A DNA stretch of 45,863 bases from Actinomycetota bacterium (GTDB lineage Bacteria > Actinomycetota > Acidimicrobiia > Acidimicrobiales > CAIXPF01), in the NCBI GenBank assembly GCA_016870475.1, contig VGBO01000013.1, positions 1 to 45,863 on the forward strand, in the 5' to 3' direction. Shown here one piece after another: positions 1-45,863 of this stretch (position 1 is the stretch's first letter; the number at the start of each line of letters is the position of its first letter). The position numbers were made by a program, and so were the translations under genes. The notes beneath the pieces are model-generated. The model was not told where the DNA came from. It saw only the letters and a list, made by a program, of their open reading frames with translations, and made no database searches.

Positions 1-65
1 GTCTTCCCCACACCGCCCTTCTGGTTTGCGACGGCGATGATCCGGGGAAAGGGCTTCGGCTCCAT
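1..65 (-). CDS. parA: ParA chromosome-partitioning ATPase, N-terminal fragment
   Basis: Reading leftwards from an ATG at 63-65, the 21 visible codons begin MEPKPFPRIIAVANQKGGVG and run into K-T at the window edge. That is the deviant Walker A motif (KGGVGKT) of ParA/Soj ATPases. ParA binds DNA non-specifically in its ATP form and, with ParB on parS, segregates the chromosome. Two parS-like palindromes lie just upstream, and rsmG, jag and yidC follow, which is the usual actinobacterial origin order. The gene continues past base 1, and parB would be expected beyond it. The product call is firm because of the motif and context; nothing can be said of the rest of the protein. Confidence 0.9.
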   Translation of the reverse strand, partial: MEPKPFPRIIAVANQKGGVGK

Positions 66-158
66 CGTGCGCTCCGACCTCGTCGACTCTGCCCGACCGC
101 GGTGATCGCGGTGGGACGGCGAACCTGGAGCATACCGGCGCGCGCTGACGGTCCGAGG

Positions 159-174
159 TGTTCCACGTGAAACC
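159..174. promoter_or_regulatory. parS-like ParB binding site 1
   Basis: TGTTCCACGTGAAACC differs at two of 16 positions from the widely conserved parS sequence TGTTTCACGTGAAACA. It lies in the parA-rsmG gap, a typical place for parS. ParB loads here as a CTP-dependent clamp. The call rests on motif and location. Confidence 0.8.
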
Positions 175-189
175 GTCGACCGGGCCGCG

Positions 190-213
190 GCGATGTTCCA
201 CGTGGAACATCGC
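190..213. promoter_or_regulatory. parS ParB binding site 2 (perfect 24-bp palindrome)
   Basis: The core TGTTCCACGTGGAACA (194-209) is a perfect palindrome and differs from the classic parS at two symmetric positions. The symmetry extends to 190-213. It lies 20 bases from the first site and ends just short of the rsmG stop codon. The remaining parA-rsmG spacer (66-158) shows no gene. Confidence 0.88.
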
Positions 214-220
214 GATCGGG

Positions 221-832
221 TCAGAAGAGCGGGCGCTTCCCGGGGACACCGATCGGTCGGGGGTACCGGTCGTCGAGGGGTGCCGTCTTCCTCAGGAGCG
301 CCATGTGCACCCCGTCGTCGACCCGGATCGCCTCGAGGTCCAGCCCGAGGAGCATGAGCCCGTCGACCGGCCACCGCTCCTCCGACCCGCTCGGCGGTTC
401 GCTGACGGCGATGCGGCCACCGACCCGCACGAAGGCGGCCGCGCACTCGGCGGTGACCGCCGGGGGCCCGAACGACCGCGCCAGCACGAGGTCCGCCCGC
501 TCCCGGAGCGTCGCGTCACGCCCGGCCCGCTCGGCACGGTCCTCGACCACCGACGCCCGATCCGACCATCCCAGCTCGTCGACCGCCCAGCGGAGGAACG
601 CGCACCGGCGAGCCTGGGCGTCGAGGAGGACGCCGGTCGTCCCGGGCCACGTCGACAAGGCGATCAGCCCGGGGATCCCACCCCCCGACCCGAGGTCGAC
701 GAAGGAGTCCGGGACGCCGTCGACGAGCGCACAGAAGCGGGCAGCGTGATCGATGTGGTCGTCGATCGGGCCGGGGCCGAGGAACCCGAGGCTCCGACTC
801 CGTTCAAGCACGTTCCGAAGACCCTCCGTCAC
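221..832 (-). CDS. rsmG: 16S rRNA (guanine-N7) methyltransferase RsmG/GidB
   Basis: This 203-residue protein has the SAM-binding glycine loop VDLGSGGGIPGLIAL and a following acidic motif (LLDAQARRCAFLRWAVDELG), both typical of RsmG. The enzyme methylates N7 of a guanine in the 530 loop of 16S rRNA; loss of the family elsewhere gives low-level streptomycin resistance. The length matches the family. The start used is a GTG at 830-832 with no clear ribosome binding site, so a slightly later GTG is possible. It sits between parA and jag, as in most actinobacteria, and is separated from jag by a strong hairpin. Confidence 0.92.
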   Translation of the reverse strand: MTEGLRNVLERSRSLGFLGPGPIDDHIDHAARFCALVDGVPDSFVDLGSGGGIPGLIALSTWPGTTGVLLDAQARRCAFLRWAVDELGWSDRASVVEDRAERAGRDATLRERADLVLARSFGPPAVTAECAAAFVRVGGRIAVSEPPSGSEERWPVDGLMLLGLDLEAIRVDDGVHMALLRKTAPLDDRYPRPIGVPGKRPLF

Positions 833-42348: not shown

Positions 42349-44709
42349 TCAGACGGTCGGCAGGGCGCCGGCGGCGGCGAGGGCGGCGACCTCGTCGGGG
42401 TGGAACCCGAGGACGTCGACGAGTACCTCGTTCGTGTGTTGACCGAGCGTCGGCGCGGCCCGGCGCAAGCCGTTCGGGGTGTTCCGGAGGCGCCACGGCA
42501 CGCCCGGCACGGGTCGCACCCCGGTGAGCGCGTGCTCGGGTCGTTCGATCATCCCGATCGCCTCCATCTGGGGCTCCCCGGCCCAGAGCGCGAGCGGGGA
42601 CAGCGACGGGAACGCCGCGACGCCGACGGCCTGCAACGCCCGGGTGACCTCCCAGCGGTCGCGGGTCGCGCACCAGGCGGCGATCCGTTCGTCGAGGGCG
42701 TCTTCTGCGGACTTTCGGGCCGCCGTGGTAGCGAACCGGGGGTCGGCGCCGAGGGTCGGATCGACGACGGAGCAGAGCGCCTGCCACATCGTGTCGTCGG
42801 TGCAGCAGATGCTCACCCACTCGTCGTCGCCGGTGGTCCGGTACACGCTGTGCGGCGCCCACTTCGGGTCCTTGTTCCCGATCGGACCGGGTGGGGTCCC
42901 GGTGCTCCGGTACTCCATCCACAGCTCCCCGGTCGTCGCCGCGATCGCCTCGACCATGGCCACGTCGAGGCGGGCGACCTCGCCGTTGCGGCAGCGGGCG
43001 GTGATTGCGTTCACAACCGCCCAGGCGGCGGTGAGCCCGGTGGTCGGGTCGCCGGTGGCGATCCCGGTCTCGCGGGGGTTGCCGCCTTCGTAGCCGGTGG
43101 CGGCGTACAGCCCGGCGACCGCACCACCGACCGGTCCGTACGCCATGTACCCCGCCGCGGGACCGTCCTGTCCGTAGCCGGACAGCGAGGTCACGATGAC
43201 GTCGGGGTTGATGGCCCGGAGCTCCTCGACGGAGAACCCGAGGTCGGCGAGCGTGCCGACGGCGAAGTTCTCCACGACGACGTCGCACCAGGCGATCATC
43301 CGCCGGATGATCTCGCGTGCCGCCTCGTTGCGCAGGTCGATGCCGAGGCTCCGCTTGTCGGAGTTGTACACCTGGAACAAGCCGTTCGTATCGGGCGTGA
43401 GGTCGACGCCCTTGGGGGGGAAGGGGAGGCGGCGGAACAGGCACAGGAACGACGGGGACTCGAGGCGGATCACGTCGGCACCGAGGTGTGCGAGCAGTTG
43501 CGTGCAGTACGGACCCGCCCAGATCCAGCTGAAGTCGCACACCTTGACGCCCTCGAGCGGTCGAGCGAGGGACCCCGGCGCGACCGGACTCGCCGCGGGC
43601 GCGGTCTCCTCCCGGGGGAGCCAGGTCGCCCCGTCGTGCGCGCCACGAGCCGGTGCGACCGACCGCAACCGCCACCAGGGGCGGTCCACCTGGAAGCCGG
43701 AGCCGGGGAGCTTCAAGCCGTCCGGGTCCTCGGCGAAGAACTCGCGGGCGACGAACTGGGCGTTCCGCTCGAGCTGCTCCATCGTGGACACGGGCGACAC
43801 GCACACCCGCGCCTCCTGCCCACGCACGTACAGGTCGTCGACCCGCTGCGTGGCGAACCACTCCGCCAGGTAGATGTCGAGCAGGTCGACGTTCGCCCGG
43901 CGTGACTCGTTGTCGGCGAAGATCTCCATCTGCGCCCACTCGGGGTCGCCCATGATGCGCCGCAGCGACTCCCACTGCGCCTGCTCGACGCAGACGAACT
44001 GCATCAGGCCGTCCTCGCAGGCGTACACGTTCCAGGGGGCGAGGGATTTCACGCCGACGCGTGAGGCGTCGTTCTCGCCGAAGAGGGCACCGGCCGGCGA
44101 CGTCTCCGCCATGCGGGCGACCGCCCCGAGCACGGAGAAGTCGATCACCTCGCCGGACCCGGTGCGGTCGGCGCGGTCGAACGCGGCGAGGGCGACGGTC
44201 GCCGCGACGGTCGCAGCGATGAGGGACGTGTGGCTGCCTCCCGCCTTGATCGGGGGGAGGTCGGCCCGGTCGGAGGAGCCGGGGGAAAGGTTCCCCCAGG
44301 TCGAACCGTGCACGACGTTCAGCTCGGTCGCCGCGTAGTCGGCGTAGGGGCCGACGCCGCCGAAGGGGGTGAGGGCGCAGACGACGAGCCGCGGGTGGCG
44401 GGCGAGGAGGTCGTCGCCGGCGACGCCGAGCTCGGCGGCGGCGGTGGGACCGAGGTCGTGGAGGACGACGTCCGCGCCGTCGAGGAGGTCGTCGAGGCCG
44501 GTCGTGGTCGACCGCTTCGACGTGCCGAGCCAACGGAACAGGTCGTGGGGGCGGTCCCGGACGATGTCGTGGTCGGTCTCATACCGGACGACGTCGGCGC
44601 CGAGGTCACCGAACAGCTTCGCCGCCCACGCCGGGCCGATCCCGCCAGCGATCTCGAGCACGCGGACGCCCTCGAGTCCGGTGCGCGTCGATGATTCCCC
44701 TGCGGTCAT
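42349..44709 (-). CDS. Tandem-domain CaiB/BaiF CoA-transferase
   Basis: A 786-residue protein of two family III CoA-transferase domains (about 1-370 and 380-786). Each half has the opening motif: GLEGVRVLEIAGGIGPAWAA and PLEGVKVCDFSWIWAGPYCT. The second half keeps the catalytic Asp (Asp554 in ATGDPTTGLTAA), but the aligned residue in the first half is Gly158 (KAGGSHTSLIAA). It resembles two-domain CoA-transferases such as DddD in layout only. ATG 44709 has a GGGGGAG site, and the frame open further upstream is rejected. It is first in a minus-strand operon with the permease. Confidence 0.87.
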   Translation of the reverse strand: MTAGESSTRTGLEGVRVLEIAGGIGPAWAAKLFGDLGADVVRYETDHDIVRDRPHDLFRWLGTSKRSTTTGLDDLLDGADVVLHDLGPTAAAELGVAGDDLLARHPRLVVCALTPFGGVGPYADYAATELNVVHGSTWGNLSPGSSDRADLPPIKAGGSHTSLIAATVAATVALAAFDRADRTGSGEVIDFSVLGAVARMAETSPAGALFGENDASRVGVKSLAPWNVYACEDGLMQFVCVEQAQWESLRRIMGDPEWAQMEIFADNESRRANVDLLDIYLAEWFATQRVDDLYVRGQEARVCVSPVSTMEQLERNAQFVAREFFAEDPDGLKLPGSGFQVDRPWWRLRSVAPARGAHDGATWLPREETAPAASPVAPGSLARPLEGVKVCDFSWIWAGPYCTQLLAHLGADVIRLESPSFLCLFRRLPFPPKGVDLTPDTNGLFQVYNSDKRSLGIDLRNEAAREIIRRMIAWCDVVVENFAVGTLADLGFSVEELRAINPDVIVTSLSGYGQDGPAAGYMAYGPVGGAVAGLYAATGYEGGNPRETGIATGDPTTGLTAAWAVVNAITARCRNGEVARLDVAMVEAIAATTGELWMEYRSTGTPPGPIGNKDPKWAPHSVYRTTGDDEWVSICCTDDTMWQALCSVVDPTLGADPRFATTAARKSAEDALDERIAAWCATRDRWEVTRALQAVGVAAFPSLSPLALWAGEPQMEAIGMIERPEHALTGVRPVPGVPWRLRNTPNGLRRAAPTLGQHTNEVLVDVLGFHPDEVAALAAAGALPTV

Positions 44710-44756: not shown

Positions 44757-45779
44757 TCAGGTCGTCGTCGGGGTCGTCCGGCGGAGCACGAGCAGGCCGA
44801 CGGCGACGCCGAGAGCGAGAGCCCCGGCCCCCGTCACCGTCGCCCGGTCGAGCCACTGCGGGGCGTCCGTCGGGACCCACGCTCGCACCGGTGCCGCCCG
44901 ACGGGACCACGCCCACAGGCCCAGTTCGAGGGCGGCGAGCGCGCCCAGCAGGTCGACGCCGAAGCGGGACACCCGGCCCGTCCGGCCGAGCACGAGCGCG
45001 CCGAGGGCGGCGACGAGCGCCGTGGCCGGGAGCAGCCACAGGGTCACCGACGGCTCGGTCTCCGCCGGCACCGACCGGTAGGCCCAACCGCCGAGCACGG
45101 TCGCCAGCGCGGCGCCGCCGGCTGCGACGGTGAGCAGCCCGGAACGGTTGCCGACGCGGCGTCCACCGAGGAGGAGCGCGCCGACCGCTGCGAACGCGAT
45201 CGACCCGCCGACGATCGCCGCGGCGGGTGACGGTCGGGCGAGCAGCACCGACCGGACGTGCACGTCGACCTCGTCGCCGTCGACGACGAGGGGGATGACC
45301 GCCTCGAGGATCGTGTCACCCGGTTCCGCCCCCGGCGGTCGGGCCGGGTTCATCCAGTGGGCACGGTGGTCGTGCCAGGCGTAGCTGCCGTCGGTCGCGA
45401 CGACCCGCCAGTCGGGCTCGGCCCCAGGCGTCGACGACGGCGGGGGTTCGGTCGATCCGTAGCGGTCGTCGTTCAGCCAGCGGCTCGGGGACGCCTCGTT
45501 CCGTTCGACGGTGCCGTCGGCGCCGAAGCGCAGGTAGGGCTCGCCGCGGTAGCCGACGACGTCGACGGTGGTGCCGCGTTCGGCGCGCAGGAGCACGAAC
45601 GAGTCGCCGCCGACGACGCGCACGTCGATCGCCGGTGTGGCCGGGTCGACGCGGACGACCTCGCTTCGGTAGTCGGTCGGTCCGGCCGGGTCGGCGGCTG
45701 CGGGACCGGCGGTGACGACGAGGCCGGCGAGCGCCAGGCCGAACGCGCCGAGGAACGTGCGGAGTCGTCGACGCGTCAT
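44757..45779 (-). CDS. Secreted/membrane protein of unknown function with WHDHRxHWM motif
   Basis: The 340-residue protein has a likely signal peptide (MTRRRLRTFLGAFGLALAGL, cleavage near AAA-DP) and an extracytoplasmic domain with GEPYLRFGADGTV. A motif YAWHDHRAHWMNPA rich in His, Asp and Met suggests metal, perhaps copper, binding. About four C-terminal helices follow, the first at AAAIVGGSIAFAAVGALLLG. The ATG overlaps the stop of an upstream cupredoxin-like gene as ATGA, which supports a copper-related role. I recognise no named family and assign no function. Confidence 0.7.
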   Translation of the reverse strand: MTRRRLRTFLGAFGLALAGLVVTAGPAAADPAGPTDYRSEVVRVDPATPAIDVRVVGGDSFVLLRAERGTTVDVVGYRGEPYLRFGADGTVERNEASPSRWLNDDRYGSTEPPPSSTPGAEPDWRVVATDGSYAWHDHRAHWMNPARPPGAEPGDTILEAVIPLVVDGDEVDVHVRSVLLARPSPAAAIVGGSIAFAAVGALLLGGRRVGNRSGLLTVAAGGAALATVLGGWAYRSVPAETEPSVTLWLLPATALVAALGALVLGRTGRVSRFGVDLLGALAALELGLWAWSRRAAPVRAWVPTDAPQWLDRATVTGAGALALGVAVGLLVLRRTTPTTT

Positions 45780-45863
45780 CGGACCGTGATGGCGATCTCG
45801 CCGCTGGGGTGCACGGTGCACGCCCCCTCGTACCGCCCTGCCGACGCGAACCGTTGACGGAGC
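45776..45863 (-). CDS. Cupredoxin-like protein, C-terminal fragment
   Basis: The minus-strand frame entering from the right edge gives RFASAGRYEGACTVHPSGEI followed by AITVR and a TGA at 45776-45778. The GxYxxxCTxHP segment is the C-terminal copper loop of cupredoxin or plastocyanin-like proteins. The methionine ligand is not seen, with Ser/Gly/Glu in its place, so copper binding is not assured. Its stop overlaps the next ATG. The rest of the gene is outside the window. Confidence 0.62.
   Translation of the reverse strand, partial: LRQRFASAGRYEGACTVHPSGEIAITVR

Follow-up and report, generated by a model that had tools for sequence, protein, structure and literature searches.

Extracellular copper capture by bacteria and the loading of their respiratory oxidases are still being worked out, and the known players are CopC, YcnI, PCuAC and Sco. 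Sco and PCuAC are reported to build the CuA site (PMC9145763), and YcnJ, a CopC–CopD protein, to support oxidase function in copper-starved Bacillus (PMC13344008). YcnI is described as a secreted, membrane-anchored copper-binding domain with an N-terminal histidine, encoded beside CopC–CopD (PMC8424229, PMC12362106), and in Streptomyces a sco gene, a PCuAC-like gene and a CopCD gene are reported from one operon (PMC3603459). CopC is described as using its N-terminal histidine (PMC10952591), as is YcnI in a one-histidine form (PMC12362106). At the CuB site of particulate methane monooxygenase (pMMO), the reported ligands are the amino group and imidazole of His33 together with His137 and His139 (PMC7584546). 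Here, we analyse a gene pair at the end of a 45,863-nucleotide stretch of actinomycetotal DNA (contig VGBO01000013.1), referred to as the window, which is the entire contig C13 of genome G000 (2.45 Mb, 116 contigs). The pair consists of a cupredoxin-like gene and a gene for a membrane protein with the motif WHDHRAHWM, here called the WHDHR protein.

The reading that we favour, and regard as reasonably probable, is that the WHDHR family comprises membrane-anchored extracytoplasmic copper-binding proteins, that the window member and its co-translated cupredoxin pass copper towards CuA of cytochrome c oxidase, and that the wider family captures copper for import. The predicted beta-sandwich domain would hold copper through a conserved H136-x-H138-xx-H141-x-M143 cluster. 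In the window's clade, its partner would be the cupredoxin, probably a lipoprotein, joined in relatives by Sco and PCuAC, and copper would be handed on to the CuA site; elsewhere in the family, the WHDHR protein would stand beside a CopC–CopD importer and YcnI, with import as the end of the capture. The computations cover the gene structure, secretion and anchoring, the conservation of the motif, the company of copper genes and the scarcity of conserved metal-type residues in the helices; copper binding, the direction of transfer and CuA as the target are what we infer. A role in copper trafficking in general is highly probable; conservation and neighbourhood support the copper trafficking pair guessed at in the initial annotation. 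The loading of CuA in the window's clade is a serious possibility that we advance tentatively.

On the minus strand, the WHDHR gene (44757–45779; 340 aa plus stop, with the open reading frame running from 45779 to 44760 and the stop codon at 44757–44759) begins within the end of the cupredoxin-like gene (45776–45863, minus strand). The upstream TGA shares bases with the ATG, which gives an ATGA overlap, read directly, at 45776–45779. Only the last 28 codons and the stop of the upstream gene lie in the window, because the window is the whole contig and the gene is cut at the contig end; the remainder lies at C35:3–272 of the same genome.

An AlphaFold2 model of the WHDHR protein from a 79-member alignment (mean predicted local distance difference test score, pLDDT, 92.2) shows a signal helix (residues 2–22), beta strands (37–179) and five helices (186–334). 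The signal peptide, residues 1–29 (45693–45779), ends in AAA before D30, with the cleavage site placed by the AxA pattern of relatives. It is followed by the predicted extracytoplasmic beta-sandwich domain, residues 30–184 (45228–45692; mean pLDDT 93.8 for the ectodomain modelled alone), which contains the WHDHRAHWM motif at residues 135–143 (45351–45377), and by five predicted membrane helices, residues 186–334 (44778–45224), all on the minus strand. H136, H138, H141 and M143 are putative copper ligands. The initial annotation had thus read the locus well: the ATGA overlap is present, alignment with full-length homologues identifies the upstream gene as cupredoxin-like, and the predicted model places the motif in a secreted domain ahead of the membrane helices.

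Relatives of the WHDHR protein were found at 69 loci in records with organism titles, using a scan with six search peptides, WHDHRAHW among them. By profile, 22 of 59 related genomes carry relatives, 19 of them strong ones, and the whole-domain profile finds the domain in 53 of 396 genomes sampled evenly across the phylum; scoring was limited to nine candidates per genome, so this number is a minimum. Among plasmids, the sole matching record is in Iamia, annotated 'hypothetical protein'. The motif columns are nearly invariant in 132 distinct relatives (W in 128 rows, H in 120, D in 127, H in 122, R in all 132, then H in 123, W in 104 and M in 117), with part of W-H-D-H..H missing in 15 rows, so the His/Asp/Met cluster pointed out in the initial annotation is a conserved feature. 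We prefer this count to that of alignment A4, which left out 19 of 86 relatives, four of them with a broken motif, so that its conservation arises partly by construction. By the 132-row alignment the motif is more than chance, since it is near-invariant in relatives of which part were found by the whole-domain profile and not by the motif alone. A third gene-calling procedure missed one of 91 focal genes. The His ligands are replaced in L091–L095, L173–L175 and L185–L188 (e.g. WRDRRTRWE, WFDHRLHRG); among these, a copper gene lies in the examined stretch of L186 alone, several of the stretches being short. The domain is duplicated closely in G097:C32, G064:C144 and L092, with both copies apparently in one reading frame in G097 and G064.

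The neighbourhood of the relatives was computed for loci of at least 6 kb, counting genes within about 6.5 kb. Each neighbour cluster took its name from the Pfam match of a single representative: CopC–CopD fusion, SCO1/SenC, PCuAC, cytochrome c, thioredoxin-like, DUF1775 (YcnI) and zf-HC2 anti-sigma. A SCO, cupredoxin, PCuAC, CopCD or YcnI gene is nearby in 75 of 97 loci, comprising 49 of 60 from the motif-assisted scan and 26 of 37 from a phylum sample (40 stretches taken from profile places, less two repeats and one below 6 kb). For SCO, PCuAC and CopD together, a rough estimate of the chance expectation is ~1% (143 listed hits in 59 genomes of ~3.4 Mb each). Copper neighbours occur at 72 of 88 loci with an intact motif and at 3 of 9 with a non-intact one (Fisher p = 0.004, ignoring relatedness); within the phylum sample the figures are 23 of 28 and 3 of 9 (p = 0.011, again ignoring relatedness). 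The survey for CopC/CopD or Sco that the initial annotation had suggested therefore finds copper genes frequent near relatives.

Gene order and genome content add to this. On the tree, the window protein stands closest to L008 and L010, whose loci include Sco, cupredoxin and PCuAC genes, and the common order in the window's clade is cytochrome c, SCO, cupredoxin and WHDHR, then often divergent thioredoxin and PCuAC genes. A frequent order elsewhere is extracytoplasmic function (ECF) sigma and anti-sigma, CopCD, YcnI and WHDHR, and L163 brings PCuAC, SCO, CopCD, cupredoxin and WHDHR together in a single run. The WHDHR family links the CopC–CopD set of genes with the Sco/PCuAC set. Among the 59 genomes, those with WHDHR more often have PCuAC (9/19 vs 4/40 without, p = 0.002), CopD (15/19 vs 15/40, p = 0.005) and SCO (11/19 vs 11/40, p = 0.04), and three of the 19 have none of the three over the cut-off. 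SCO, PCuAC or CopD lies within 10 kb on the contig at 14 of 24 WHDHR places in the whole-genome matches. This comparison counted 19 of 22 genomes and 24 of 32 places, with weak, helix-only and second-piece rows dropped.

The upstream gene was examined through its homologues. Its tail in the window aligns with 26 complete homologues, each located immediately upstream of a relative's WHDHR gene, and in the 27 rows Cys107 and His110 (L010 numbering) are invariant, with the first histidine (H80) kept at ≥90%. Read over C35 and C13, the window gene has all three type-1 ligands, His, Cys and His. A search of G000 with the cupredoxin family profile gave four places (C70, C1, the C13 tail and C35:3–272 on the minus strand); on the 126-position profile, C35 bases 3–272 (minus) correspond to positions 4–96 and the C13 tail to 98–125. 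By eye, the two contig ends join in frame at one shared Thr codon (homologues: GETLRQ), and no longer overlap between them was found. As judged from profile and reading frame, one cupredoxin-like gene is split between C35 and C13, each contig holding the part that the other lacks. By reading of the alignment, a lipobox-like Cys follows the signal helix in many cupredoxin rows and is missing in some, and the place of the usual axial Met is occupied by a hydrophobic residue, as in high-potential type-1 copper sites. Matches to PF00127 are weak: 7 of 27 family members match at E ≤ 0.1, the best at 3e-4, and L013 scores 19.4 bits against a gathering cut-off of 21.2. A third cupredoxin of the same family in G000 lies at C70:360–731 (L194).

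On C35, the gene next upstream of the cupredoxin-like gene is divergent, and because of this the unit here is probably just the cupredoxin-like and WHDHR genes. About 47 bases downstream of the WHDHR gene lies another gene (about 42349–44709, minus strand), which we take to be a CaiB/BaiF-type CoA-transferase. CoA-transferase-like genes are also present on C35, next to the other end of the pair.

Asking how the putative copper site relates to described ones, we examined the mature N terminus. The residue after the signal-peptide AxA is His in 74 of the 132 relatives and Asp in 48, and was not callable in 10; by the AxA pattern, the window protein has AAA and then D30, i.e. a mature N-terminal Asp and no N-terminal His. 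Longispora albida (L064) and Solirubrobacter soli (L045) supply examples of the His type, and Ilumatobacter nonamiensis (L011) of the Asp type. The W of the motif stands at a median mature position of 108 in the His type (101–119, 61 rows) and 106 in the Asp type (105–111, 43 rows), and at 106 in the window protein. Three actinobacterial PmoB proteins start with HGERAQEA after AxA and have the W of WHVH at 106; the PmoB sequence of PDB 3rgb_A has W136-H137-V138-H139. A WHxH pair at about mature position 106, a PmoB feature, is thus present in the window protein. The match of the ectodomain to the PmoB profile is not significant (probability 0.5%, E 0.13); the segment that aligns best is the motif, in register. 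Going by these residues, His-type relatives carry the parts of a histidine brace, of which the window protein is without the first; the apparent likeness of the WHDHR domain to PmoB is suggestive. The actinobacterial PmoB genes L145–L147 fall in one family (f72), and the WHDHR domain is present as well in two of their three genomes, G071 and G099.

We considered and rejected a rule by which an N-terminal His goes with a CopCD context and Asp with a Sco context, as 10 of the 97 loci combine Asp with a neighbouring CopCD or YcnI gene but have none of Sco, cupredoxin and PCuAC. On a quick tree of 131 of the 132 rows, with few columns and built without those that define the label, His/Asp needs only three changes, which makes it, as far as this tree goes, a clade feature and not a context rule. 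With slightly more doubt than for CuA loading, we propose that the WHDHR domain could be a new histidine-brace copper family, in which the N-terminal His and WHxH of the His type would form a mononuclear site with the pMMO CuB ligand set, in a copper-acquisition protein controlled by an ECF sigma factor and a His-bearing anti-sigma factor, with the window's clade having Asp and Sco and cupredoxin partners. If the site is of the CuB kind, it would also serve as a model, small and separable, for a pMMO site of debated role.

The WHDHR protein appears to belong to an undescribed family. Sequence searches of Pfam, NCBIfam and the PDB with the window protein by itself returned nothing noteworthy, and 79 family members gave no credible match in Pfam or NCBIfam, in keeping with the initial annotation, which could name no family for it. 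The Pfam scan of the 79 members at E 0.1 met 14 families; apart from Ribosomal_L39, each match at E ≤ 0.1 (13 in Pfam, 15 in NCBIfam) occurred in a single member. At the same threshold none of the 79 matches PF07987 (DUF1775/YcnI), CopC PF04234, CopD PF05425, PCuAC PF04314 or PmoB/AmoB PF04744, the last of which also has no match in genome G000. The ectodomain profile compared with YcnI, CopC, cupredoxin, SCO, PCuAC and PmoB-N gave nothing significant, and unrelated control families scored alike. Designed beta-trefoils (ectodomain profile against PDB, best E 3e-4) and the eukaryotic ribosomal protein eL39 (PDB, best E 0.017; Ribosomal_L39 in 3 of 79 members, best E 0.0084) were judged to be chance matches over short stretches. 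In the structure comparisons, the copper storage protein Csp3 reached VIA Z 10.5 over the helices, a score that helical bundles can reach by chance, and was rejected. The ectodomain aligns with an Ig-like DUF3244 protein over 81 residues (VIA Z 4.8, root-mean-square deviation 3.3). AmoB chains 9pxf_A and 9leg_B come third and 32nd in the Foldseek ranking (E 0.24 and 1.2) with a weak VIA Z of 3.9, and the alignments cover chain residues 277–414 and 284–419, outside the N-terminal cupredoxin-fold domain. No YcnI, CopC or small blue-copper protein is among the 50 best ectodomain fold matches, which excludes nothing. In titles and the opening lines of abstracts on Sco, CopC/CopD, DUF1775, ECF/copper, PmoB and actinobacterial oxidases, we found no description of the WHDHR family.

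Several observations weigh against the proposed copper role. Neither the whole model (best Foldseek E 0.032) nor the ectodomain (0.058) has a significant fold match. The loci were scanned with profiles built from clusters of these same loci, 22 of the 97, among them 16 whose motif is intact, lack any copper gene in the vicinity, and a motif-less relative, G015:C224 (L095, a short stretch), has a CopD match about 4 kb away. In G000 itself, the immediate neighbours of the pair look like CoA-transferase and other unrelated genes, and Sco, CopC–CopD and PCuAC lie on contig C1, away from the window pair. On that contig, C1:1–1899 (L110) carries CopC–CopD, its 5' end cut by the contig start, and PCuAC, and C1:46869–47803 (L111) carries SCO and a second cupredoxin. 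Fur-like and zinc-ABC-like neighbours (ABC, ATP-binding cassette) at some loci (clusters 10, 12, 18 and 21, named by reading) point in the same adverse direction, and could mean that the WHDHR protein serves another metal, most likely zinc, or haem. Fur-like regulators occur in 11 loci by reading, with one upstream gene matching PF01475 (FUR), and ABC-transporter clusters read as zinc-type in 7, 8 and 12 loci; however, several of the same loci (L042, L061, L063, L065) have a CopC–CopD neighbour and copper genes are the more frequent company overall, so that we hold a different metal to be quite improbable.

The remaining alternatives keep copper and change the task of the protein. It might be an extracytoplasmic copper sensor of the regulon, reporting to a neighbouring zinc-finger anti-sigma and ECF sigma factor. 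ECF sigma genes are found in 40 and anti-sigma genes in 34 of the 97 loci, and an ECF-cluster gene overlaps the WHDHR gene by four bases in L036, L055, L062, L072 and L073; among immediate upstream genes, Pfam identifies ECF sigma in 8 of 58. However, the stretch counted contains no ECF gene at 57 of the 97 loci, and the anti-sigma has conserved residues of its own beyond the zinc finger (H124 25/25, H128 21/25, D171 24/25, H185 24/25), with which it may sense by itself. The frequency of these neighbours suggests regulation of the locus and not sensing by the WHDHR protein; we consider the sensor unlikely. Neighbour clusters 1 and 5 (e.g. L056:5336–5875 and L056:4639–5268) are the ECF sigma and zinc-finger anti-sigma factors, possibly a copper- or haem-sensing pair by their residues. 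A copper permease with the five helices as its path is very improbable. Most members are estimated from hydropathy to have several membrane helices, and CopD is adjacent in many, but the membrane part has no His, Met or Cys conserved at ≥40 of 87 rows, keeping mainly basic positions (R207 54/87, Arg at 267 73/87, R312 82/87; the window protein has Thr at 267) and a W at 188 (40/87). Moreover, seven short members of one supported clade, plus L174, have only 190–208 aa from the start of the domain, too few for five helices. The lack of conserved His, Met and Cys in the helices and this short-member clade make a channel less probable than a membrane-anchored binding protein. Likewise very improbable, in our estimate, is that the protein works as a redox enzyme on a mononuclear copper site: many relatives do combine an N-terminal His with WHxH, as at the pMMO CuB site, but the window protein has Asp at its mature N terminus, and one account describes what site B does in pMMO as unknown (PMC10952591).

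Compared with plastocyanin/azurin cupredoxins (PF00127), the upstream gene shares the conserved His, Cys and His ligand positions but differs in its hydrophobic axial place and weak Pfam matches. With PmoB/AmoB, His-type relatives share the mature N-terminal His and the WHxH near position 108 (106 in PmoB), whereas the profile match is non-significant and the window protein has Asp at position 1; no PmoA or PmoC was recognised among the neighbour clusters, for which no family-based search was made. The likeness to CopC and CopC–CopD of the YcnJ type lies in a putative extracytoplasmic copper site, a histidine directly after AxA in many relatives and frequent proximity of the genes, but the WHDHR family has no CopC or CopD match and no metal-type residues conserved in its helices. 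YcnI resembles the family in its membrane-anchored secreted domain, presumably copper-binding here too, in its CopC–CopD neighbours and in the N-terminal His of many WHDHR relatives; the family differs by having no DUF1775 match, the WHDHRxHWM cluster and several helices in most members, and the window protein also by its absent N-terminal His. An unnamed domain that keeps company with CopC, YcnI, PCuAC and Sco across the phylum would be a missing member of this set. The partner genes at WHDHR loci are the same as in the Streptomyces sco operon, to which the WHDHR protein and the cupredoxin are added here as extra members.
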